Positions 1,184 through 57,479 of a stretch of DNA of 64,000 nt are shown here, piece by piece. Origin of the DNA: Arctopsyche grandis (taxonomy: Eukaryota > Arthropoda > Insecta > Trichoptera > Hydropsychidae); NCBI RefSeq assembly GCF_051622035.1, contig NC_135362.1, positions 11,349,501-11,413,500 on the forward strand, given 5' to 3'. The position numbers were made by a program, and so were the translations under genes. Numbering within the stretch: position 1 is the first letter of the stretch; every line of letters starts with the position of its first letter. The notes under the pieces are model-generated. The model was not told where the DNA came from. It saw nothing but the letters and a program-made list of their open reading frames with translations, and did no database searches.

Positions 1184-1342
1184 TTACGCCACCTCTAAAT
1201 CTGAAGAATCACCATCGGAATACTGAAGAGTGGAACACTGTGAAGGTGGCATGGATACAGCATCTTCCTGAAGTCTTCGAAGTCTTTCCTGTTCCTCTCG
1301 CTTCTGTTTCCGCCATTTTGCTCTCCGATTTTTGAACCAAAC
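1184..1342 (-). CDS. Gsc: Gsc coding exon 3 (homeodomain recognition helix to stop)
   Basis: The exon follows an acceptor TTTTCAG and begins [20 protein letters not shown], the recognition helix and basic tail of the homeodomain. It ends in an acidic Ser/Asp-rich tail ([10 protein letters not shown]) and a TAA stop at 1184-1186. Phase 0 at its 5' border matches exon 2. A possible polyadenylation signal AATAAA on the minus strand lies at 1023-1028. Confidence 0.93.
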
Positions 1343-15194: not shown

Positions 15195-18100
15195 TTTTTC
15201 TAGATCATGAAAACGTGATCAGTGATCGATTCTGAGTTCGAATCAGTCAAAATCTCGAGTTCGAATTTTCGCATGATCACAAAACTTCATCTATTGTTAC
15301 TACGTACATAGATAAAGTAACAAATTGACATATGAACTAATTTTTACATGCGAAAAATAACAAAATGCGAAAAATGGTATTGCTTTCAACGCTTATTTAA
15401 AATATCAAAGTATTAGTTTTTGTATATAATACAAGGAAATATTGATGATCGTCTTTAAACTTTCAAAAATGATTCTTATCCCCATACATTAGCTCAAAAC
15501 ATGCCTACGACGCGTTTAAAAAATGATTAGAATTTCGATTTATTATTTAATATTATACATGTGCATTTAAAATTCCATTATCTTCATAGAATTAATTTAA
15601 AATATACGCATATACATATTTATGTATATAAAATTGAAAATTTTTGTTACTTTAAATAAATAAAAAAAATCACAGTACGTATTTAGCTTCAATGAAAGTA
15701 AAAGCAGTGAAAATTTTGGTAATTAAAAATAAATCCGCCTAAAAATATAGTCGAAATGCTACTATATTAACTCCGTTAAAATGAACTGCTAAGGGATCGT
15801 GCGAGCATTTATGACGAAGTGGGTGGAGCTGGGGGGGGAGTAAAAAAATCACGTCGATATATCGGCATGCTTTCGGTCGAAAATGATTTGATTTAATTAA
15901 ACGAAAGATATGCAACAATATTTGGGGATCAGATTGACTGCTTCCTATCGACCACCCACCGCCCATCCGGCCACCCTCTCCGCCGCCACCCCCATCCCCA
16001 GGATAAATAAATGATTCAAGATACATGGCGAGGGGGTGGCGTGAGTTCGGCGCGTGGTGTGTGGTGTGTCGAGGCTCAACCCACGCCGGCTTTAATTTTG
16101 TTTATTCTCAAAACATTTCATTGTTTCCCGACGGATCAAAAATTCAACGCGCAACGAGAGCTTAATTACTGTGCCCACCCGCCCACCCTTCCAACCATCG
16201 ATGGGGTCGAACACTCACCCCCTCGCATACGACCGGCAACATTTCGAGAGACGATGGTGATCATTGACTCTAATTGTGTAATTCTCGTCTCGATTTTTAT
16301 AAGCTACATTTAAAATTCACGATCGATTATTTATTTATTTACATATTAGCCACAGTGACATTGCGTGAATACTCTAACGCGTCACTGTGATTAGACATAT
16401 AAGACAAATACTATATGTATATATAAGAAAATTAGCGAGACATCTATGTTATCTTCTATACGAGTCTACGTGACGAGACAGAATGTTAAATGACAGAAAA
16501 CGCAAATATCGGAAGGCAAAGATCGAAAATCGAAAGATCTTAAGTCGAAAGATCAAAAAAAAACATGGTGCATGGTAAACGGTACATACTCACTTAATTT
16601 GCGCGAGCAGGATACAACAGGAACAAGAGGAACAGGCTTTTCCTCCCGTATTAATGTGCGCGCGCAGAATTTTTTTTGATCTTTCGATTTTCGATCTTTG
16701 CCTTCCGATATTTGCGTTTTCTATCATTTAACATTCTATCTCGTCACGGATACCGCTTCTATACATATATGTATATACATATGTATATGTATATGTATAT
16801 ATATATAAAATTGAATGTCTGTCTGTGTGTCTCGTATAGTCTCCTAAGCCACTGAACCGATTAGGATGGAACTTTCAGGATTAGTTGTATACATGTCCGG
16901 AAACATTACTGTGAAAAAAATCGCCCAAAACGGGAAAAACGGGAATGAGTGTCATTGCAACGCAATAATTTCAAATGTTTTCGTGTCGCGAACGAGAACG
17001 GAACAAGAACGAGAACGGGAACGAGAACAGGAATGGGAACAGGAACGGGAACGAGAACGGGAACGGGAACGGGAACGGGAATTGCATGCGGTATTGTTGC
17101 ATTGTAACGCATGCCGGGTTCAGCTAGTGTTTAATAAATTTTTGAAATCATAGTGGTGACATAGTGGGTATGATGGTTTTTGCCAGTTTGATGGAGGAAC
17201 CGCTTCAACTATGAAATCAGATAAATTGGCAAACCCTGATAGGAAACGATCGACGGAGTCACAAATATCTAAGTCTGACCAGCAGTTTATAAATTATATT
17301 CGGAATAAATTCTTTTCAATCGCGGTCAGCTCACGGGATTGAACCCGGTGACCTCTCGGTGCTTAGTATTAACCACCGAGCCATGCTGTTGGCTACGTAC
17401 ATATAATATATTTATCAATGTACTCGTATTATACGGAATTGGTTTTACGTTATATCACCAACGTGTGCAACGGCAGATAAATATATATGTGTGCAACGGC
17501 AGATAAATTGCATTTCTCCTCTAATGCTTCGTTTATTGTATTTTCATGATTAAAAACATTATACACGTTTTAGAAGACTTTCAATGGAAAAAACTAATAT
17601 AAAGTTTGTAAAATGATTTCGAATTAGTGACTTTAAATGCACGACTAGTATTAGTAGCTTTAAATGCACGACTCTTTTCCGTAAAGCGAGAAGTGTGTGT
17701 TTCTATATTTTATTATGGATGTTTGACAAATAATTCAGAGTTTTTGCTGCATACATATGTATGTATTTTGTTCGTTTGAATCAAATATTATTTTAGGACA
17801 TGACGTCTGTTGTATAAAAATAATAATCAAAAAAATTTGAACGCCAGAAGAGTGTGTAAAAGAAAAACCTATATTTTCCATCGAATGTTCAAAATGCAAT
17901 TTTCTGTGGTTGAAAATTAGACATTCAAATCATACATAACTGATATTAAAAGTAAAATCTATATTTTACATGGTATTGTAATAGCATAATAAAAACATGT
18001 ATGTATGTACATATGTACATATATTATACAGACATATATGTATATATATTTATAAGTATGTATGTATATACATATTTATATTTTAATTTATCTATACATT

Positions 18101-24900: not shown

Positions 24901-27900
24901 AAAAGTATCCATTTTTTAAACATGCTGTTTGATGCATATGTACATATATACCTAAATAAATAAAAAGTTATATTGATGATAAAGTCTAATTATACTGTTA
25001 TTTCACAATTAAATATTTAAAATAAATTAATACCATGCTCGGTCTTACATATGTATGTATGTATACCAATAGGTTTATTTCATGCTGATTTAGGTTTATG
25101 TGCTAAAGGTTTATATTGTCTTTATGTAGCTTGGATTTAAAACAAAACCACCTAAACCAACAATTCAGAAACACTGAATTTAGTCGGAATATGAATGGAA
25201 ACTTGGTCCTGAAACATAGTGATTTAAAGATACACCGAACTTTATAATGCATTTAACAGATGAGCCGTCGGATAGAACTTTCATAAAAATAAGATCTATG
25301 TATGTAATTTGTTATATATTATACTTACTACTGACTACAAATTTCTTTGTTTTGAATCGTCCAGGAAACGATGGATGAAACGGGGATGTGAATAATTGCA
25401 AATGAATCGCATTTTCCATACAATATACATACATATGTACATACAAGACCATTGAACGATTTATTATATTAAAAATAAAACAAGCGATAATGGAGTGTGT
25501 GCTTGCATTTTATCGGGGTATAATAATAATTTGTTGGAGTTGAATCGCTTAAGGGTGGTTGCGGTATTCGAGCCACTTTCGAATCCACCCACAACCACCT
25601 CAAAGCCCTCCCTCCCCTCCATCTCCACCCACCGACCGGGTAAAATATTTAATTCAACAATCCGATATGCGAAAATCTAGCATACGTGGCGAAGTCGTAC
25701 AAAATGGCGAACTCGTCGACTGCACGCCATGTTTTTGTTTCGTTCCCATTTCCATTTAGGTATTTTGTTTTTTTTTTCAGACCATTCGCTCCTTCTTCCG
25801 GTGAACGAACTGCAAACGCTGCCGGTTTTGCAAACGTTAGAATATTTGTTTTTACAACGATAACCGAATTTTACATTAGCCTACTTTAATAATAAATAAA
25901 TTAATTGATTGTAAAACTTCTACAAATAGAACAAGAAAATTAAACCATCCAAATTGTAATGCTGATAAAATTTAAACTCTCAATCTATGTATTCATTTAA
26001 TAATTTTGCCCCGCCATGATGACATTAAAATTTGTTTGTCTTAGAAGGTTTTTGAGATACAATACAAGCGAGTTAAGAATAAGACTTTTTTTTTTTTGGT
26101 GTTGTGTGATCTCACTCAAATTAATTTCATTGTTGAAAGGCTAGAATTGGAATAAAAATAGCCAGCAGATCGGTGGTTGCGTTAATGCTAACCACCAAGT
26201 GTTTCCCGGGTTCAAGCATTGGGTTGACCTCGATTGAGGAGAATTAATTCAGAGTATTTCTGTAGTGCTACTGGTCAGACTTGAATATTTGTGACTCCAA
26301 GCGGATCGTATCCTATCAGAGTTTGCCAATTTATCTGATTTAATTGTTGAAACGGTTCCTCATCAAAATAGCAAAACCATCCTACCTACTATTTGTCACC
26401 ACCATTTGAATATGATTTCAAATTTATACTTTTTAAATGATATATGTTAAATACCATGGTCGCACAAGAGTACCAGGTGTCACTCAAGAATAAAATCCGT
26501 AATGGCATCATGGAAAAATATATATTAAATTGAGTTTCGAAGCATCAATTTGTAAAGTTATAGTAATAAACACTTCTTATATAAAAAAAACCTTGTAAAT
26601 AAGAATATTTTTAGATACGATTTGGTCTTTTGATATGGCACATTTAAAATTACCATATCATCAATATTTCTCTATATATTTCTCAGTCCGAACTATGAAA
26701 ACAGTGGAATAAAATCTAAAAGATATATTCATTGAAACAGATCTTTCTTTTTACGTGACACACAATACAGATGGAATCTCCACACTTTAAAGAATTTATT
26801 TGATCTTGTGTCTGCCTAGAGCGATCCGCAAATTCAATCCATCAACATCGACGCGGCTAGCCATGTGATTAATCCAATTGGGGGTGGAGTGGAGCTTGGG
26901 GTGAAAAACCGAGGTAAGTCTATTTCTAAACAAAGCCATTTTAATAATGCATTTTTCAATTTTCCTAAAACAAATAAACGGCGGCGAGGTCATGACGTCA
27001 CGCGCAAACCACCCAGCACCCCCCTGAGAATGGGGTAGGTCAGGCGAACCACCACATACACACGCCCTCGCCATTCTGCAACTCCAATTTATTATTTGCG
27101 TAATACCTGTTCCTGTATCCGTACATTGCATAACCCTATGAAGACGCATCAACAACAATTATCCTTACCTTCGACTTTGACGCACGTAACGACTTTGTAC
27201 GGCTTTTTAATCTTTTCTTTGAAAATTCACCTTTCATCGTACAAAAAAAAAAATTAATTAAAAAATTTTAGCATGCGTTGTATAACGAGTCCGTGCTGTG
27301 ACGTGGGATGTTTCTAGAATTGCCCACGTTTTGCAAACAAAGTCTAGAGCCGCGATTTTTTTCACTCGAGGACACATTGTTTCTTAACAAGTTTTTTTAT
27401 TTTCATGTCGTGGGAAAGAATTTTTTTAAATTCACTTGATTTTCAAATTATGAAACACAGAATTAACCAAAAGATGTCAAAATATTGTGTCAATATTGAC
27501 ACAATCTTTTGTACTTTCTATCTAGAAAGCAGTGATTAAAGAGCAATCTATCAACAAATATGGGAAAATAAAAAATAATACAAAATGTTGACATATCATA
27601 TAATATCGCTATTCTGTCTGTGTGTCTGTCTGTCTGTCTGTCTGAGATAACGCTCTGCGTACTAAAATAGTCGTTTCGATTCGACATACATATGTAAATA
27701 TGCACGTCACAGCTAAACCACTGGCAAAACGTATATACAATACAATAACAAAAGAAAAAAACTTCTATATATACTACACCAATGTTTCCTCTTGGCAGAG
27801 AATTTACCGCCATCTATTGAAAATTTATTTAATTAATTAATTTTTCTATTGGTGTTTTATATTGTTTACATGTAGGTAGGGAGGTAGTTTTTTTCCTCTT

Positions 27901-33900: not shown

Positions 33901-35441
33901 TTATTTTTTTGTGCGGGCTCGTACACATTCGTTTCGATAAATAAGCCGATTCGAACATAATTCTCAAATAAACGAAAATGCGATTTTTTCAAAAGGGAAA
34001 ATATTTACACACATACATATGTATATAATAATACTTGACGTACCTCAACCCTTTCTTCTTTGAGGTCGACTTTGAGCGCCAACTGCTCCCGTAAAACAAC
34101 ATCCGGATAGTGCGTTCTGTCGAATGTCGCTTCCAATTGCTCCAATTGTTCCTCGGTGAAAATTGTCCTGTGTCTTCTTTTGCGTTTGGGAGGTGGTCCT
34201 AGAGGTGCCTGAAGTCCTGCAGCGACTGCTGCTTGTACATATCCTCCATACAGACCAGGATACGCCACAGCTGCTACACAGAATAAAAATCGATTATTTA
34301 AATATGTACATACATATAACACCAAAACGGTGGGTTTTTTCGATGAGGAAAAAATTACGCGCATTTTCGTATTGCCAAACATTCACAGCTAGCCGTGCGA
34401 GCTTAAATATTACAACTTCATCCTATTTCCAATAAGTTCAATAGGCACGAGAGAATCGGAACGGAAAAGCTTTTAAAATACAAATGCGCGAGTCGGCGGG
34501 GGTTGCGAAAAGCCTTAAGCTTTCGCAGAATATTCCCTAAGTTCCAGCGGGTCGAGCTTCTTCATCACATTCGCAGATTTTTCCGGCTGTCAGCCATCGC
34601 AATAACAACAATGTGACTCCAGCCAAATGCGAAAAATCCCAACGTAAGTAGGGCGTGTGGGTGTAGGTATGTATGTATGTGTGAAAAAGAATTCTCTCTA
34701 TATACATATATACATACATATTATACACAGCCAAGTATAATATTTTGCATGATCGATGCTGTGACATGACATAAGTAACTCTACAGATAAACATATAATC
34801 ATATGACGACAATTTCTTCTATGTAAATAATTTCACGAAGGAATTTATTTTTATGCTTTAAAAGATCAAAAAAACATTGTCGAATTTCATTATTTATGTA
34901 TATTGAAAATACACAGAGACCTAATAAAGTTCAATGACTCATTTATACCGGATTTTCCAAATATATCTACATACATACATACATACATATATTTACATAT
35001 ACACTCGCTCGTACGATTCTGAAAAACAATATTCCTTTATTAGTTTATGTACATACATATGTAATTCAAAATTTGCGTTTTGATCTCCATCTCTGGTATT
35101 ATTATATTTATTATTTAAAGTATCTTTTCAGTTTTTACTTGTTCTGCGTATTGACATTTTATGAACTCCGTGCTGTTTTTGTGGGGTTTTCAATTACACA
35201 GATTTTGGCAGTCATTCGACTGCGTAAACGTGGGTAGATATGCTTGTGATTTAAAAAATTAGTACTGAGCTACATATGTAAAAAAAAGTACGCTTATATT
35301 CATCTCAAGATTTATATTTTATCAACATATGTATCTACATACATACTTGCTCCATATTATTTAAATTCAAACTTTCAACATACATATTTCTGACATGACG
35401 AAATAATAATCTGGATGGAAATAAATGTAAACAGGAATAAA

Positions 35442-38500: not shown

Positions 38501-41198
38501 GTCGGGAAAATGTTTAACTACATAATCCTATAATTTGAGCACAGCGTCGGCTCTCATCAAAGCATAAATTGAGACGTGCCTTATCTTGAAAAGATGTGAA
38601 GACTTAACACGTTTACCTGAAAGGATCTGAGGATTAGGTACACTCAAAGGTATCGATGGCAAGCATAGATTGCAATGGTTAAAAAAAAGTTGAAAAACTA
38701 TGTATGTAGTTGTCTAGTAACTAGTTGACTGGCTTTCTGTAATCATTTTTGTGTAAACATAATGTAAAAATTACAATAATATTCATAATCTGGATAAATC
38801 AATTTTCAACGTCTCTAAAAAAATAACTTGGATATAATATGTAGATAGTCTAAGATGTTAACATATTTAATTTATAAGTTTATTTGTTTCAATAATTTTA
38901 TTGTTTTTATTTAAAATAGACAAATACAAATATTTTGCGTACAGTAAATAATTTCTAGTAAAAAAAATTATTCCATAAGTTCTATCGAGTCTGTGAAAAT
39001 GTATATGTAGTTATTGCTTAATAGTCCTTTATAACATTTAAAATAATAAATAGATTCAAAAAAACATGTTCTTATTTATATGCATGTTATTTGTGTAATT
39101 AATTCAACCTCGGCGGGCTATTTTTATGTAATGTTTTTGATATTTGAGTAAATCCTAAATTTTATATAATTAATCTACCCTCTGACGTACATATGTATGT
39201 ATTTTTAATATGTAATATGTTAGGGCTGGTGGCCAATCCTATATATACCCCAGAGGTTTGTCACCTCACAAGAAAGTAAACATAATATATGTACATATGT
39301 ACATAAAAAAATTACCTTCACCAAAAACGAATAAATTTCGGGGTGGAGTAAAATAAAAGTTTCAAAATAACAAACATTAATATTAAATAGAGCAAAAAGC
39401 GGATAAAAACATACACACAGAAGAGTTGAATTTGTTTATAAAATAAAATAAAAAATACTAATAACCATGATAGCGATACAAATTGAGCGCAAATGTATGG
39501 AAACTTGCACAAGACAAAAGTTCTACTTCCGGCTGTCGGATTTTGTTCAATTTTTTTTTAATACTTAAAGTCACTATCAGTATTATACAAATTAAATATT
39601 AAGAAAATACAAATAATTTAAAAGGGCAAAATAAAATAATGAAATATTGTTTTAAAAAAAAATACTACTTCCGGTTTACGAATTCTGACCAAAACCTTAT
39701 CAGCTCTAAGTTAGTACATAAATAATACAAATATAAATTTTCAGCTTAATACGCTCAGGGGTGTGGACAGAATCCAGGCGACAACATTTTTGACCTTTCT
39801 AAGAGGAAAAAATAAAGGAAAGTAAAATAGGCACATGTGTATGTATGTTGATACATCGAAACATTTAAATGAGCTTCAAAATAATCTAAAATAAAATAAA
39901 AATCCGGGTTTCAATGTATGTAAAATCCATTTATACCAATTTTTATTGTCGTTAAATAAACGATTTAACAGCATATTTATTAATAACTAGTGTTTTTACC
40001 CGGCTTCGCTCGGTATTTATAATACAAACCGCTTAAACATGGCCAATCTATTGTAAACATTTTATTAAATTGATTTGAATAGTTTTAATTTATTTAAATT
40101 TATTTGAATATTAATTTGTTTTTCCACGAACCAACAATAGTTACATTCAAAGTCTCCTTCGAAATTATATATCTATTAGTGTTTTCACTCAGCTTCGCTC
40201 GGTATTTGTAATACAAACCGCTTAAACATGGCCAATCTATTGTAAACATTTTATTAAATTGATTTGAATAGTTTCAATTTATTTAAATTATTTGAATATT
40301 CATTTGTTTTTCCACGAACCAACAATAGTTACATTCAAAGTCTCCTTCGAAATGATATATCTATTAGTGTTTTCACTCAGCTTCGCTCGGTATTTGTAAT
40401 ATAAACCGCTTACACATGGCCAATCTAATAGTAAACATTTTATTAAATTTATTTGAATAGTTTTATTTTATTTAAATTTATTTGAATATTCATTTGTTTT
40501 TCCACGAACCAACAATAGTTACATTCAAAGTCTCCTTCGAAATTACATATATATCTATTAGTGTTTTCACTCAGCTTCGCTCGGTATTTGTAATATAAAC
40601 CGCTTACACATGGCCAATCTAATAGTAAACATTTTATTAAATTTATTTGAATAGTTTTATTTTATTTAAATTTATTTGAATATTCATTTGTTTTTCCACG
40701 AACCAACAATATTTACATTCAAAGTCTCCTTCGAAATTATATATCTATTAGTGTTTTTACTCAGCTTCGCTCAGTTTTTTTATTAAATTGAACGTCACCG
40801 TCTCTACGAACCAAACATATATACATACATACATACAAAGTCTCTTTCGAAATTATATATTAGATTAGATTTAAAAATGTGTAACAAAAACCAAAAATAA
40901 TAAAGGAACCATTTCGTTAATTTTTCCACCTACTACAATAGACATGAAACGTTGAAATGAATGTCTTACCGAAAAAATCATGAGCCGCGTGAAACCCTGA
41001 AGCGGCCGCAGCGAGATGATGCAGCCTGAGGGCGGGGGGCGCCAATGGGGGCCTGGGGGGCCTCGGAGGCCGGGGCGCCAGCAGACTCGCTATGGTAAAA
41101 GCAGCCCCGGGGGCGCCGGCTCCACCCGCGGCCGCCCCCGTCTGCCCTCCCCCGCCGCCCTCCCCCATCGCATCCCCGCATCCAGCGGCGCCCCGCAT
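1184..41198 (-). CDS. Gsc: goosecoid homeobox gene, whole coding span (3 exons)
   Basis: Joining 41198-40970, 34273-34044 and 1342-1184 gives an open frame of 205 residues with compatible splice phases (1, then 0) and GT/AG borders. The protein has an N-terminal eh1/GEH repression motif ([11 protein letters not shown], about residue 37), a Pro/Arg/Ala-rich linker, and a full homeodomain beginning [20 protein letters not shown] and ending in [15 protein letters not shown]. Lys at homeodomain position 50 is typical of Gsc/Bicoid-class factors that bind TAATCC. In the known family, goosecoid is a nuclear repressor acting in embryonic patterning and the foregut/nervous system, using eh1 to recruit Groucho. 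The intron inside the homeodomain, between Glu and Val-Trp-Phe, is a common site in paired-like genes. The N-terminal half is short and Gly/Ala/Pro-rich compared with many relatives. Identification is firm; the exact start codon is less so. Confidence 0.93.
1385..1640 (-). mobile_element. Helitron-like short element, minus copy (TGTCTG-type family)
   Basis: Read on the minus strand it runs TATATAAAAATCAATGTGTG, TCTGTTTGCCTGTC, CAACCGATTGCGATGAAAC, GGAATGAGTGGCATTGCAAC. This aligns by eye with the copy at 16790-17128. The family pattern (TGTCTG repeats, an 'accgatt-rgatgaaa' block, then a GC-rich end) is widespread in insects. It lies only about 40 bp inside intron 2 from the Gsc exon 3 acceptor. 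Element class is inferred, not proven. Confidence 0.5.
5069..5740. mobile_element. Non-autonomous hAT-like element with CAGTGGCGGACTGG termini
   Basis: The left end CAGTGGCGGACTGG (5069) is matched by its inverted copy CCAGTCCGCCACTG ending at 5740. Both sides are flanked by TATATATA, compatible with an 8-bp target duplication but ambiguous inside a TA tract. The 672-bp interior has repeated GGGCCC motifs and no transposase reading frame. Confidence 0.65.
5741..5810. repeat. (TA)n microsatellite
   Basis: An uninterrupted run of about 35 TA units directly follows the right end of the element at 5069-5740. Confidence 0.98.
5825..5935 (-). mobile_element. tRNA-derived SINE head fragment
   Basis: Read on the minus strand, this shows a tRNA-like head with a box-B-like GGATTCAATCCC and an A-box-like AACAGCTCAGTGCTTAG. 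It resembles the head of the SINE at 17150-17397. Only the head and a short piece of body are present. Confidence 0.5.
6165..6240 (-). mobile_element. SINE body fragment
   Basis: The string AATGAAATCAGATAAATTGA and the following CTGATCGGAAACGATGAGTC match the body of the SINE copies at 17150-17397 and 41911-42315. Confidence 0.45.
8270..8720 (+). pseudogene. Non-LTR retrotransposon (jockey-like) 3' coding remnant
   Basis: The frame 8297-8527 reads [19 protein letters not shown], then [16 protein letters not shown] and [14 protein letters not shown], the pattern of the C-terminal region of jockey-type reverse transcriptases. After a frame change the sequence continues as [20 protein letters not shown] near 8615-8690, the usual end of such proteins. 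No catalytic RT domain remains. It is a 5'-truncated, frameshifted, dead copy. A related copy lies at 54185-54600. Confidence 0.7.
8756..9065 (-). mobile_element. Helitron-like element with GC-rich internal segment
   Basis: On the minus strand it starts TCTAATATAATGTCG and ends near CTAG at 8756. It shares ATGGCTAATCTAATAGTAAA and GTCTCTTTCAAAATTATATG with the 39988-40866 array. The usual GC hairpin beside the 3' end is degraded. A segment of about 65 bp at 8938-9003, including GGCGCCTGCGCCCCCGGGGA, is not present in the other copies. Confidence 0.6.
10768..10846. repeat. Three imperfect tandem copies containing CCAATC(A)AAACG and CTTTGA
   Basis: Three units of about 27-29 bp share CCAAYCASAAACG, and the first two follow it with CTTTGAYSA. 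Each holds a CCAAT-like core, and the first has CTTTGATC, a TCF/LEF-type site. A TATATATAAGC sequence follows at about 10858. It could be a regulatory cluster or a TE fragment; no coding content is seen. Confidence 0.45.
14040..14220. mobile_element. MITE related to the 50942-51132 element
   Basis: It begins ATCTAACCTGGTACCAACT and contains AGTTGAAGTGTATTTTCACT, CTAGTTGGAATATATTCCGT and ACGTAAGTTGATT. All are shared with the element at 50942-51132. The right end has decayed. Confidence 0.5.
14415..14890 (+). pseudogene. LINE endonuclease/reverse transcriptase C-terminal fragment (RTE/CR1-like)
   Basis: The 151-codon frame 14421-14876 reads [20 protein letters not shown], then [20 protein letters not shown]-like text, [28 protein letters not shown] and ELFRAAEDR. 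This is the standard C-terminal tail of insect endonuclease/reverse-transcriptase LINEs. The catalytic RT and endonuclease domains are absent, so it is 5'-truncated. An AAGAAGAAG-type tail directly follows the stop. The frame is intact over this length, which suggests a fairly young insertion. Confidence 0.8.
14935..15110. repeat. Fragment of the CCAAGTGTA/ACTAGTTTGTTCATA MITE family
   Basis: CTCGTTTGTTTATGAACATA, TCTGGCCAGTTATACTGTAC and the following text resemble the interior of the copies at 32958-33240 and 33324-33710. No complete ends are visible. Confidence 0.4.
15124..15193. repeat. (CA)n microsatellite
   Basis: A nearly pure CA run of about 35 units with one GA interruption near its start. 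Confidence 0.98.
16470..16747. mobile_element. MITE with about 70-bp terminal inverted repeats
   Basis: The left arm 16470-16539 (starting GTGACGAGACAGAATGTTAA) is the near-perfect reverse complement of the right arm 16678-16747 (ending TTTAACATTCTATCTCGTCAC). The arms differ at a few positions. The 138-bp centre has no coding potential. No clear target duplication was identified. Confidence 0.75.
16790..17128 (+). mobile_element. Helitron-like short element with GGGAAC minisatellite
   Basis: It begins near AAAATTGAATGTCTGTCTGT, contains CACTGAACCGATTAGGATGG, and ends GCATGCCGGGTTCAGCTAGT. A GC-rich end followed by CTAG resembles Helitron-like 3' termini. Internally there is an ACGGGAACGAGAAC-type 6-bp tandem repeat (about 16993-17082). 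Homologous to the copy at 1385-1640. It produces a long open frame with an Arg/Glu repeat that is not a real gene. Confidence 0.55.
17150..17397 (-). mobile_element. tRNA-derived SINE
   Basis: On the minus strand the 5' head has TGGCTCGGTGGTTAATACTA (A-box-like) and GGGTTCAATCCC (B-box-like), as in a tRNA. The unrelated body includes CTGGTCAGACTTAGATATTT, TTTCCTATCAGGGTTTGCCA and GTTGAAGCGGTTCC, and it ends TGTCACCACTATG. Related copies occur at 26160-26410 and 41911-42315. Confidence 0.75.
18260..18480. mobile_element. Small non-autonomous element with GGCGC-rich interior
   Basis: It opens CAGTCCCGG and closes CCGGCACTGGTCA, so the ends are short imperfect inverted repeats. GGTCAGTAA occurs exactly on both sides (18251-18259 and 18481-18489), possibly the target duplication, though TGGTCAGTAA is common locally. 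Internally CGCCTTTGGCGC-type motifs recur. No coding content. Confidence 0.45.
18905..18985. repeat. (TA)n microsatellite
   Basis: A pure TA run of about 40 units. Confidence 0.98.
19185..20125 (+). mobile_element. Internally deleted hAT element with 8-bp target duplication
   Basis: The ends CAGTGGTTCTCAAGTGCGGCC (left) and ...GCCTGAGAACCACTG (right) form an inverted pair. They are flanked by a perfect 8-bp direct repeat CTCTAAAA (19177-19184 and 20126-20133). This is the hAT signature. The interior keeps only the C-terminal part of a transposase (separate entry). At 941 bp it is much shorter than an autonomous hAT. Confidence 0.9.
19622..19966 (+). pseudogene. hAT transposase C-terminal (dimerisation) domain fragment
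   Basis: The open frame carries [40 protein letters not shown] and [13 protein letters not shown], the classic hAT dimerisation region. There is no proper start codon: the frame is entered from degenerate upstream sequence that still hints at homology ([13 protein letters not shown] near 19490-19525). The catalytic RNase H-like core and BED finger are missing. It lies inside intact hAT ends, so it is a deletion derivative and not a domesticated gene, although the surviving frame is notable. Confidence 0.85.
20951..21549. mobile_element. Non-autonomous hAT-like element, GGAGTCGG family copy 1
   Basis: A perfect 8-bp direct repeat ATTACAAG flanks it (20943-20950 and 21550-21557). The ends are degenerate relatives of CAGGGCTGTGGAGTCGG. 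Near the ends are ATCGACTCCAACTCC and AGGAGTCGGTTAATTG, the same motifs as in the element at 29172-29711. The short frame inside is not recognised. Confidence 0.65.
22085..22460. promoter_or_regulatory. GC-rich island within Gsc intron 2
   Basis: Positions 22230-22450 are GC-rich in an AT-rich intron and hold GATAA, TGACGTCC (CRE-like) and GCACGTGC (E-box) motifs. No splice-bounded coding exon was recognised. A regulatory role is only an inference from position and composition. Confidence 0.25.
23195..23335 (+). mobile_element. SINE fragment
   Basis: GCTGGCCCGGTGTTGCCAAC, CAGACCTTGGATATATGAG, ATCTGACTTCATTGTTGAAA and CGGTTCCACCAATTTGGCA parallel the SINE copies at 26160 and 5825. Head and tail are decayed. 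Confidence 0.45.
26160..26410 (+). mobile_element. tRNA-derived SINE, plus-strand copy
   Basis: It begins AGCCAGCAGATCGGTGGTTG, with the B-box-like CGGGTTCAAGC downstream. The body CTGGTCAGACTTGAATATTT, CGTATCCTATCAGAGTTTGC and TTGTTGAAACGGTTCCTCAT matches the copies at 17150 and 41911. It ends near TTGTCACCACCATTTG. Confidence 0.75.
29172..29711. mobile_element. Non-autonomous hAT-like element, GGAGTCGG family copy 2
   Basis: The left end TAGGGTGTGGTGTCGG and the right end CCGACTCCACAGCCCTG form an inverted pair. The flanks GTAGAAAT and GTATAAAT match at 7 of 8 positions, as expected for an aged 8-bp target duplication. Near the left end GTTAAAAATTAAC is a small palindrome. The interior is AT-rich and non-coding. 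Confidence 0.65.
30840..31250. other. GC-rich, poly-G and CCACCC-rich island in Gsc intron 2
   Basis: The island contains G tracts at about 30881-30895 and 31240-31256 and repeated CCACCC/GGGTGG motifs. Several overlapping open frames exist on both strands, rich in Pro/Ser/Arg, none with a recognisable domain. I treat it as non-coding. It could be a regulatory element or a G-quadruplex-prone region. Confidence 0.3.
32958..33240. mobile_element. Partial MITE of the CCAAGTGTA family
   Basis: It starts CCAAGTGTAAATTTCATTAA and contains ATACTAGTTTGTTCATAAAC and TTCATGCACACACTATTAGG. It is a truncated neighbour of the complete copy at 33324-33710. Confidence 0.55.
33324..33710. mobile_element. 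MITE with long diverged terminal inverted repeats (CCAAGTGT...ACACTTGG)
   Basis: The left end CCAAGTGTACATTTAGTTCT, continuing through ACTAGTTTGTTTATACACGA, is mirrored at the right by CGTGTACGAACAAACTAGTA and ends GAACACTTGG. The repeats exceed 50 bp with several mismatches. The 387-bp element has no transposase. Relatives occur at 32958-33240, 49105-49560 and 14935-15110. Confidence 0.7.
34044..34273 (-). CDS. Gsc: Gsc coding exon 2 (linker and most of the homeodomain)
   Basis: This exon encodes [20 protein letters not shown], a proline patch, then [10 protein letters not shown] onward to DLKEERVE. It ends in GAG followed by the donor GTACGT at 34043-34042. The 5' border is phase 1 after an acceptor reading TGTAGCAG, which offers two in-frame AG choices 3 nt apart (exon starting at 34273 or 34270). 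Either choice restores the frame and differs by one alanine. Confidence 0.93.
35444..35506. repeat. (TA)n microsatellite
   Basis: A pure TA run of about 31 units inside Gsc intron 1. Confidence 0.98.
36110..36510. other. GC-rich segment in Gsc intron 1
   Basis: The segment is distinctly GC-rich. The open frame 36102-36449 lacks a recognisable domain. Motifs such as CGGCACGGCGCGGGCGGGGA occur near 36340. I see no exon borders that join it to Gsc. It may be regulatory. Confidence 0.25.
39510..39800. repeat. Two imperfect copies of a TACTTCCGG-containing unit
   Basis: TTCTACTTCCGGCTGTCGGA (39519) and TACTACTTCCGGTTTACGAA (39663) begin two loosely matching stretches about 145 bp apart, each followed by similar AT-rich text. 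This resembles a transposon-derived repeat, class unknown. Confidence 0.4.
39988..40866 (-). mobile_element. Head-to-tail tandem array of Helitron-like elements in Gsc intron 1
   Basis: Four units of about 188-194 bp plus one internally deleted unit of about 115 bp are repeated in the same orientation. On the minus strand each unit begins near TATATAATTTCGAAG and ends with a GC-rich inverted-repeat-like block CCGAGCGAAGCYGRG, then TRAAAACACTAR. The outermost unit begins TCTAATATATAATTTCG and ends CTAG followed by TT. A TC start, GC-rich hairpin, CTAG end and insertion between A and T are Helitron-like hallmarks. No Rep/helicase is encoded. Confidence 0.75.
40970..41198 (-). CDS. Gsc: Gsc coding exon 1 (eh1 repression motif)
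   Basis: The frame is open from an in-frame TGA upstream. The first ATG is at 41198, giving [16 protein letters not shown] and then the eh1-type motif [12 protein letters not shown] proline/arginine/alanine-rich stretch and the end HAAHDFF follow. The donor reads TCG|GTAAGA at 40969, leaving phase 1, which fits exon 2. The exon is very GC-rich, unlike its AT-rich surroundings. The next Met, at residue 11, could be the real start. A partial copy of this exon's last 35 nt occurs at 55849. Confidence 0.85.
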
Positions 41199-41560: not shown

Positions 41561-41910
41561 CCGCGGATTATTATAATTAGCGATGAATAACAACACTGTT
41601 ACAGTATAATCCCACTAAATGGTACGGGTTCTTTTTTTTTTATATTTGGCCCTGTCGTGTCAAAACAATCTAGAAATTGTTCATTTAACAAAACTTTTTA
41701 TAGTTCATATGTACATATAAGTTTTTATTTTATTTTTATTTTTTACATATATACCAGGAAGGCCAAATTACATGAAGGTACAAATTACAATTACAATTAC
41801 AATGCAGCATTTTTATTACAAGTCGTTGAATTACGAGAAATTGAAAAACTCGCAAATTAACGAGACATCTATGAATTGCATATAAATTTTATTGTACATT
41901 AATCATACTT

Positions 41911-42315
41911 CAAATAGTGGTGACATAGTAGGTAGGAATGATTTATAGCCAATTTTTTTTTAAACGGGAACCGTTTCAACAATGAAATCAGAGAAAATTG
42001 CCAAACTCTGATAGGAAACGATCTACCTGGAGTCACAATATCCAAGTCTGACCAGCAGCACTACAGATGTACTCAGAATTTTTTTTTTCCAATCGAGGTC
42101 AGCTCATGAGATCGAACCCGGCGCCTCTCGGTGTTAAGCAGAAGCTTAACCCTTTGTGGCCCAACCTCTTTTTTCTTTTTTTCTCTGGTAACGCTAAAAT
42201 CGAAGTTGTGTCGAAATGGAACCACTGAGACACTAGGGAAAAGTAATGAAATTGTGGGCATTCCACGGCACCACTGGGACACAAAGGGTTAACGACCGAG
42301 CTATGCTGCTGGCTC
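41911..42315 (-). mobile_element. tRNA-derived SINE interrupted by a piggyBac-like MITE
   Basis: Read on the minus strand, the head has GAGCCAGCAGCATAGCTCGG and the B-box-like CGGGTTCGATCTC. The body matches the copies at 17150 and 26160, including TTTCCTATCAGAGTTTGGCA. The head is split at a TTAA by the insertion at 42150-42288. Confidence 0.75.
42150..42288. mobile_element. piggyBac-like MITE with TTAA target duplication
   Basis: The ends CCCTTTGTGGCCCA and TGGGACACAAAGGG are inverted repeats with one mismatch. They are flanked by TTAA on both sides (42146-42149 and 42289-42292), the piggyBac target signature. It is 139 bp long, non-coding, and sits inside a SINE. Confidence 0.85.
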
Positions 42316-42354: not shown

Positions 42355-42579
42355 TTAGTGTTTATTATTGTTTTACCCGGCTTTGCTCAGTGTTTGTAAT
42401 ATAAACAGCTTAAACATGGCGAATCTAAATAGTAAATATTAATTTGTTTTTTTTTTTAATTTATTTGAATAAAAAAAAATGTATGTCGATATCGTCGTCA
42501 TAGAAACTTTGATTTGTTTTCGATGTTACCAACCAACATTATATACTTACAAAATCGCTTTCGAAATTATATATTAGAT
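42355..42579 (-). mobile_element. Helitron-like element split by a hAT insertion
   Basis: It contains GTTTTACCCGGCTTTGCTCA, ATAAACAGCTTAAACATGGC and TCGCTTTCGAAATTATATAT, matching the 39988-40866 family. Its 5' terminus (minus strand TCTAATATA) is where the hAT element at 42580 inserted. Confidence 0.65.
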
Positions 42580-46670: not shown

Positions 46671-47193
46671 TCTAATATATACTTTTGAAAAAGACTTTGT
46701 ATGTAACTATGCAACTATTGTTGGTTCGTAGAATTCGTGACGTTCAATTTAATAAAAAAAAAAAAACAAATAAATATTCATATAAAATAAAACTATTCAA
46801 ATAAATTTAATAAAATGTTTACTATAAGATTGGCCATGTTTAATCTACACAGATTACCTAAACACAATCTGCTTCAGGTCATTGACTTTAGAGAGTCTTT
46901 ACTTAATACTATGTATTAGATGTATTATGAGCATTTATAAGAATTGTAAATAGGTTTTTGAGCTCTTTTTCCTATTATGCTGTACATTAACATTAGAATA
47001 ATATATTACTATGATTACTAACCAAATTAAATTAAATTGTAAAATAGAAAATGATCAGTAGATCAGTAGCTATTAAAATAGATATAAGATGTATTGTGAA
47101 CATAATTTCGTAATAATAAAAAGCATTTAAAAATCAAAATAAAAAAATCGGTTTATATTACAAATACCGAGCGAAGCTGGGTAAAACCACTAG
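46671..47193 (+). mobile_element. Helitron-like element carrying a 300-bp insertion
   Basis: It begins TCTAATATATACTTTTGAAA and ends CCGAGCGAAGCTGGGTAAAA, CCACTAG. The family sequence breaks at about 46842 (GGCCATGTTTA) and resumes at 47149 (CGGTTTATATTAC). The intervening segment ends AATAATAAAAAGCATTTAAA followed by A-rich text, as expected for a retrotransposon 3' end inserted into the Helitron. Confidence 0.65.
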
Positions 47194-55793: not shown

Positions 55794-56129
55794 TCTAATA
55801 TATAATTTCGAAAGAAACTTTGTATGTATTTAACCATTGTTAGGGTTACGCTTCAGGGTTTCACACGGCTCATGATTTTTTCGGTAAGACATCCATTTCA
55901 ACGTTTCATGTCTAGCGTAGGTGGAAAATTTAACGAAAGGATTTCTTTATTATTTTTGTTACATATTTTTAAATCTAATATATAATTTCGAAAATGACTT
56001 TGTATGTAACTATAAATTTAAATAAAATAAAAATATTTAAAAAAATCTAATAAAATGTTTACTATTAGATTGGCCATGTTTAGGCGGTTTATATTACAAA
56101 TACCGAGCGAAGCCGAGTAAAAACACTAG
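55794..56129 (+). mobile_element. Helitron-like element carrying a Gsc fragment
   Basis: It starts TCTAATATATAATTTCGAAA after an A and ends GAGCGAAGCCGAGTAAAAAC, ACTAG before a T. This matches the family at 39988-40866. A second internal copy of the 5' terminus begins at about 55974. Between the two 5' termini lies the Gsc-derived segment. Confidence 0.75.
55849..55976 (+). pseudogene. Captured copy of Gsc exon 1 end, splice donor and intron 1 start
   Basis: CTTCAGGGTTTCAC, CGGCTCATGATTTTTTCGGT, AAGACAT and CATTTCAACGTTTCATGTCT are shared with the minus strand of 41004-40866. The alignment runs about 130 bp with a dozen or so substitutions and two short gaps. It comprises 35 nt of coding exon, the intact donor GTAAGA and about 95 nt of intron, ending at the Helitron 5' terminus. 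It is too short to encode anything. Confidence 0.88.
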
Positions 56130-56590: not shown

Positions 56591-56741
56591 TCAGTATTGG
56601 CTTTCAATCCAAATTAACACCTTCTAACAATAACAGTGAAAACGTAGGTGTTTTAAAAAGATCGTTTTAAAGTGTTTGTTATATAATCAGTGAAATTACA
56701 AGTGTTTGAATAAAACTAATTTGAGTGTGTGTTTCAGAAGC

Positions 56742-57479
56742 ATGCGGTTGTTATGGTTAGTCACCGTGGTGGCGGCTTGCTGCTTTGTAGCAAGCTGCAG
56801 TGCTAAGCAAGAAGAGGAATCTTCGGATTTGGTGGCAGCTGCTTCTGGCAAGTCGAGCCATCACGAGTCTGGAGGAGGTCATGAGCACCATGCTCATCAC
56901 AGCTCCAAGCACGGCAAGAAGGGAGACAAGGGCTACAAATCCGGACACCACTTCGACAAAGGAGAACACGGCCACCATGGTAAAGAACACCACGGTGGAC
57001 ACTACGCCGAACACGGAGGACACAAGAAGAAGCATCACGACGAAGCTGAACATTACGGAGGACACCACGAAGCCAAGAAGGGACACAAGGCTGGAAAATT
57101 CGGCGAAAAGAAAGGTCACAAGAAGGGATCTAAAACCACCGGATACCACCACAAAGCCCACAAAGACGAATACCACAAAGAGCACAAGTTCTACGATGAC
57201 TTCCACAAAGGTGGACATCATGGCAAACACGGCGACTTCCATGGACACCATTCGAAGAAGGCTGGAGGACATAAGAAGGGAGGCAATCACAAGTCCGGAT
57301 ACCATGATGATCACTACGGAAAGAAGGGACATCACGACAAGGGTCACTACGACGAGGATCACAAGGGACACAAAGGACATCATGGCCACGAGGAGCATCA
57401 CGCCCACCACTCCGACTTCGGAAAGAAGGGAGGTCATTCCGGTGGAAAGGAGTATGGCTTCAGCAGTGGCAAACACTGA
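56742..57479 (+). CDS. Secreted His/Gly/Lys-rich protein
   Basis: The 245-residue product starts with a signal peptide MRLLWLVTVVAACCFVASCSA. The mature part is about one quarter histidine (55 counted), with Gly, Lys and Asp/Glu and a few Tyr, in loose repeats such as HHxKGHxxKHH and YHKEHKFYDDFHKGG. This start is preferred over an upstream ATG at 56706 because a short intron is visible: donor AAC|GTAGGT at 56644, branch-like CTAAT, and acceptor GTTTCAG ending at 56737. That makes the upstream ATG intronic. TATA box, initiator and AATAAA (57579) complete the gene. Similar His-rich secreted proteins exist in several insects, often unnamed or called histidine-rich glycoprotein-like. Function is unknown; metal binding or cuticle cross-linking is inference. 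Confidence 0.88.
   Translation: MRLLWLVTVVAACCFVASCSAKQEEESSDLVAAASGKSSHHESGGGHEHHAHHSSKHGKKGDKGYKSGHHFDKGEHGHHGKEHHGGHYAEHGGHKKKHHDEAEHYGGHHEAKKGHKAGKFGEKKGHKKGSKTTGYHHKAHKDEYHKEHKFYDDFHKGGHHGKHGDFHGHHSKKAGGHKKGGNHKSGYHDDHYGKKGHHDKGHYDEDHKGHKGHHGHEEHHAHHSDFGKKGGHSGGKEYGFSSGKH

Follow-up and report, generated by a model that had tools for sequence, protein, structure and literature searches.

Gene-fragment capture, filler-DNA capture by insect Helitrons and a captured splice donor have all been published, and the chimera described here is a further instance. In the portions of the papers available, silkworm Helitrons are credited with 3724 captured gene fragments and with new Helitrons built from two (M.-J. 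Han et al. 2013, PMC3789558), while insect Hel1 Helitrons of Spodoptera frugiperda have internal filler-DNA captures with end junctions of 2-13 bp, for which the filler-DNA model was favoured (G. Han et al. 2019, PMC6544945). The Helraiser paper describes 3' transduction, and HelibatN3 with a captured NUBPL promoter and splice donor that produced exon trapping in a cell assay (PMC4778049). Captures by TIR transposons show a cis bias and microhomology (median 2 bp), and the single-copy ones are mostly gap filling (Tan et al. 2021, PMC8277862). No paper in the literature searched, which excludes most subscription papers, had 'goosecoid' and 'helitron' together, or any of five sequence strings of the present Helitron-like family; 'helitron' is absent from the main text of a caddisfly paper (PMC8881205).

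In the window, i.e. the whole 64-kb stretch of DNA analysed here, a Helitron-like element at 55.8 kb contains a piece of the goosecoid gene (Gsc), standing between two Helitron 5' ends that begin at 55794 and 55974 (Table 1). BLASTN within the window aligned 40830-41004 with 56008-55849 (85% identity, 175 columns, E 3e-53). The Gsc part of this match, 55849-55973 (+), is a diverged copy of 41004-40865 (-), with 9 substitutions at 125 aligned sites and 3 gaps, and takes in the final 35 bp of Gsc exon 1, the splice donor, and intron 1 as far as its own Helitron-like element. The copy sits about 15 kb from the donor, in cis and in inverted orientation. An earlier note on this DNA had claimed as much, namely that the exon end, splice donor and intron start were copied, that the copy was inverted and 15 kb off, and that a Helitron-like element enclosed it; the alignment and the A/TC...CTAG/T ends at 55794-56129 bear this out. 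It had also placed the end of the match exactly at the Helitron 5' terminus, which is right for the Gsc-specific part, but the similarity itself runs 35 bp further, into the Helitron 5' end at both loci (33/35 identical by eye). Relative to the chimera, the Gsc locus has five extra bases (TCTAA) at the intron/Helitron border.

Table 1. Features of the chimera, of Gsc and of the Helitron-like family in the window
Feature	Coordinates	Strand	Basis or remarks
Chimeric Helitron-like element	55794..56129	+	336 bp, 5' TC, 3' CTAG, between A and T
Outer Helitron 5' end	55794..55848	+	~55 bp; on far side of captured piece
Copy of final 35 bp of Gsc exon 1	55849..55883	+	alignment
Copy of Gsc intron 1 start, GTAAGA intact	55884..55973	+	alignment
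Inner Helitron: second 5' end, internally deleted body, 3' end	55974..56129	+	motif and alignment
Expected empty-site sequence at chimera locus			CTGAATAA/TAATATAT
Gsc exon 1, coding part	40970..41198	-	predicted from first in-frame ATG; eh1-like FTIASLLA motif
Donor exon segment	40970..41004	-	BLASTN match
Donor intron 1 segment, splice donor to Helitron	40865..40969	-	BLASTN match
Gsc exon 2, first homeodomain part	34044..34273	-	limits predicted
Gsc exon 3, coding part (VWFKNRR...)	1184..1342	-	limits predicted
Helitron-like lead unit and tandem array in Gsc intron 1	39987..40864	-	TRF
Interrupted family member	46671..47193	+	~300 bp unrelated DNA inside
Diverged family member	42355..42578	-	3' end approximate

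When the donor was masked and its 139-bp stretch 40866-41004 was searched against the window, 55849-55977 scored 166 bits, compared with a best of 39.2 bits among 200 dinucleotide shuffles and 30.1 bits, at chance level, for the next-best match; hence there is one second location only for the Gsc part in the window. Since 9/125 substitutions and 3 gaps separate the copies, an assembly duplication artefact is unlikely. The exon part of the copy has 1 substitution in 35 (K2P 0.029) and the intron part 8 in 90 aligned sites (K2P 0.095), together with the 3 gaps, which total 15 bp and include one of 5 bp at the Helitron border. The sole exon substitution is of C-to-T type at a CpG and turns codon GCG into ACG; altering a codon is, as expected, what a passenger would show. 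The splice donor survives in the copy, with bases -6 to +9 identical (TTTTCG/GTAAGACAT), and would likewise be a passenger, to which we ascribe no function at the present site.

Downstream of the chimera lies a gene for a histidine-rich protein with a DUF4779 domain (PF16009, E 5.5e-42; 85 relatives), at 56733-57476 (+) and thus starting some 600 bp away. This gene may have its promoter at a TATAAATA string, which stands roughly 430 bp past the chimera. There is no evidence for functional exon trapping at the present site: with the putative promoter that far past the chimera, the copied splice donor would precede the DUF4779 transcript start.

The donor gene has a homeodomain that extends over two exons, 34181-34041 and 1345-1280 (-), where 46/47 and 21/22 residues match a typed Gsc probe, and exon 1 ends (-) with ...CATGATTTTTTCG/GTAAGA at 40970/40969, in a phase that agrees with exon 2. 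The assembled protein has 1173 matches at E <= 0.001; among the best 120 of these, insect goosecoid accounts for many of the entries that have a name, others going under names such as 'visual system homeobox 1' or 'uncharacterized'. We aligned the window Gsc with 21 of these best 120. The exon 1 end (17 residues) aligns with HHLAHSPFHRAHDFFG of Bombyx, with like strings in most Lepidoptera rows, and its final 10 residues align with SPFHRAHDFF of Bombyx Gsc. Two beetle rows have GHIAAAAGGFG..SADF opposite the exon 1 end, where GHIAAAAGGFG matches the residues preceding those final 10. This end aligns less clearly in Ostrinia and Chilo (P0037, P0039); exon 1 is missing altogether from rows P0059 and P0071. 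By this alignment the host is an insect, likely from the Lepidoptera/caddisfly group. The eh1-like motif of Gsc, at 41076-41099 (-), reads FTIASLLA, compared with FTIDSILA or FTIESILA in the aligned Lepidoptera rows.

Because the exon end is conserved in goosecoid of other insects, the direction of transfer is read from gene to element; on this comparison of sequences the coding part is ancestral gene sequence, with Gsc the donor and the element the receiver. The opposite direction, in which the shared 125 bp would be a transposon piece gained by Gsc exon 1, is scarcely credible: the exon 1 end is conserved in Bombyx Gsc and in beetles, which rules such a gain out for the 35 coding bp, no further copy of the shared 125 bp was found inside the window, and nothing emerged in favour of this reading.

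The 5' motif of the family, TCTAATATATAATTTCGAAA, occurs five times in the window at <=3 mismatches (shuffle mean 0.07), two of these sites being the chimera's own, and the 3' motif occurs seven times, five of them within the Gsc intron 1 array (shuffles 0.00). All four elements with an intact left end (chimera, Gsc, 46671 and 42578) begin with TC, a count that omits degraded ends near 8.9-9.07 kb, while the inner Gsc array units do not start with TC. CTRR is found at 5/5 right ends, as CTAG in the chimera, the Gsc array end, 47193 and the 8.76-kb copy, and as CTAA, followed by C, in the 42.36-kb copy. Insertion is between A and T without target duplication (A before TC 4/4, T after CTRR 4/5). 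The 3' subterminal hairpin folds weakly, with 31, 12 and 32 of 200 shuffles folding as well at three 3' ends. We use the label "Helitron-like" because the termini and A/T flanks fit Helitrons and the hairpin is only weak; the family is probably a nonautonomous Helitron.

By TRF, the array in Gsc intron 1 has a period of 194 and 4.2 copies (39988-40779), with units of ~190 bp. Four full units stand head-to-tail, 0.5-6% apart (K2P), and the inner junctions read CACTAATAGATATATAATTTCG or near it. The lead unit is shortened, lacking internal sequence present in the chimera. For the insert at 46846-47149 in the 46671 member, the best window source is only 63 bp at 73%; a nested element or another filler capture might account for it. 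A separate dispersed repeat family (17134-17395, 26159-26427, 41901-42133; copies 77-79% identical) has one copy upstream of Gsc exon 1. Exact patterns for the 5' end, body, 3' end and Gsc splice-donor piece each gave 0 matches in viral contigs, as did the 3' end pattern in prokaryote contigs; these zeros weigh little, both collections being poor places for insect DNA. The chimera's left flank has a best second match of 37.4 bits in the window, and its right flank has none at E 0.01; the window thus yielded no copy of the empty site.

The 3' part of the inner Helitron differs from array units u1 and u2 at 8/119 sites each (K2P 0.071 each), from u3 at 13/117 (K2P 0.121) and from u4 at 12/118 (K2P 0.110). 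At 9/125, the divergence of the captured piece is thus close to that of the inner Helitron from u1/u2, and somewhat below that from u3/u4. The comparison of divergences that the earlier note had proposed therefore gives roughly equal values (8/119 to 13/117 for Helitron copies), and the capture is roughly as old as the split among the Helitron copies, the numbers being small. Among window copies, the inner body is nearest to u1/u2 (92% identity); by eye, it lacks a GTGTAAG change common to those two units.

How did the gene piece enter the element? On balance, we favour filler-DNA capture, in which template switching, in the course of repair or replication, would have brought the 125 bp of Gsc into a short nonautonomous Helitron-like element. 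The 55.8-kb Helitron would have suffered an internal break or fork stall, followed by extension on the Helitron of Gsc intron 1, via the common ~35-bp 5' end; synthesis would then pass the Helitron terminus into the Gsc intron and on into the exon, and rejoining to the left part of the acceptor would take little or no homology (about 2 bp). The outcome would be two 5' ends around a Gsc piece; in addition, the inner body must be assumed to have lost internal sequence in a deletion of its own. The Gsc copy, its joint to Helitron 5' sequence and both intact outer termini are observed, and we infer the steps from break to rejoining. A source locus in hand and captured DNA internal to the element are features of filler DNA. 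Also in its favour are the pair of 5' ends around the Gsc piece, a donor only 15 kb off in cis (compare the cis bias and microhomology of TIR captures, and the 2-13 bp end junctions of insect Hel1), and the similar divergence of the captured piece and of the inner Helitron from u1/u2. Counting against it, the closeness of the inner body to u1/u2 also fits an origin in the Gsc intron.

The two junctions differ in homology, with 35 bp at the right border and only a 2-bp CG at the left, no more than chance could give. The joint of the outer 5' end to Gsc is ambiguous, as the CG is common to a family-like reading and the Gsc side; in an alternative reading, the preceding letters AGGGTTACGC resemble, by eye, the following Gsc bases with a 2-bp gap. 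At the right, the inner 5' end and the present Gsc lead unit part company beyond the first 35 bp, so that the switch-back point is not placeable. Involvement of the Gsc intron 1 Helitron in the capture is very likely, since a Gsc-derived edge <=5 bp from a Helitron 5' terminus has a uniform chance of ~0.09% (0.0009) in 64 kb, a rough, after-the-fact figure that disregards orientation and is based on five termini, including two that belong to the chimera. As to the role of mobile vehicle that the earlier note gave to the Gsc-flanking Helitron, template-switch repair fits the layout at least as well.

That role is part of a possible, though rather unlikely, history in which the chimera arose in the course of rolling-circle transposition, either at the Gsc locus or elsewhere, with the Gsc-intron Helitron as vehicle and the 5' end of another Helitron reached by a switch, and came to 55.8 kb finished. 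The intact outer 5' TC, 3' CTAG and A/T flanks would suit such an arrival, as would the fact that, of the copies in the window, the Gsc array units are the nearest to the inner body. However, nothing in Gsc exon 1 corresponds to the outer 5' end, which makes a template switch necessary here too, and part of the chimera's inner body is missing from the lead unit that Gsc has today. It is very unlikely that the locus arose by segmental duplication, in inverted orientation, of the border between Gsc exon 1 and intron 1, Helitron included, followed by a second Helitron and a deletion: the copy is indeed inverted and 15 kb away, but its flanks match no Gsc sequence outside the 125 bp, and insertion and deletion would have had to leave a clean 336-bp element with A/T flanks. 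In end bypass (3' transduction), captured DNA comes to follow the original 3' end and is closed off by a new 3' end further downstream. This fails here, because the captured DNA precedes the inner 5' end, and the 3' end is the family's usual one.

The value of the locus is that donor, acceptor and both junctions are readable together in one window. That the captured piece precedes a 5' end is evidence against end bypass and gives concrete form to an origin by template switching. Host flank between two 5' ends, or 5'-side capture, would be the mirror image of 3' end bypass. Perhaps the common 5' terminus acts as a landing pad for homology-guided switching that lends host flanks, and the chimera spread a working splice donor, a combination that we consider quite unlikely. 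If the landing-pad reading were true, any Helitron in a gene could lend its upstream flank to another member. Should other family members turn out to have host flanks between double 5' ends, a genome-wide test of 5'-side capture would become possible.

Set against described systems, the case is less novel than the earlier note had it: "unusual" was an overstatement, as the HelibatN3 splice donor (PMC4778049) and the Spodoptera Hel1 filler captures (PMC6544945) precede it in the available parts of those papers. A double 5' end around captured DNA had no counterpart in the portions compared of the Helitron-capture papers, the name itself not being among the search terms. Lepidopteran nonautonomous Hel-2 (PMC4344730) is likened here by its partial description only, as short and noncoding, with 5' TC, 3' CTAG and A/T flanks. 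The single-copy Pack-TIRs (PMC8277862), ascribed there to transposition-independent gap filling, share with the chimera a capture in cis with, in the chimera, putative microhomology, but are TIR elements, whereas the chimera is Helitron-like. As in silkworm (PMC3789558), a gene fragment has been captured and a Helitron made from two others, that study being, from its available text, a genome-wide catalogue and ours one case. HelibatN3, as excerpted, likewise pairs a captured exon piece and splice donor with a nonautonomous Helitron; it carries a promoter and forms an amplified subfamily, whereas the chimera has 35 bp of exon and no promoter known. With Hel1, in the sections available, the chimera has in common host DNA inside the element, a source locus that was found and short homology at the junctions, although the 2 bp at the chimera's left one may be chance, but Hel1 has several captured regions and exemplars that multiplied, whereas here a gene piece stands between two 5' ends with its donor 15 kb off.
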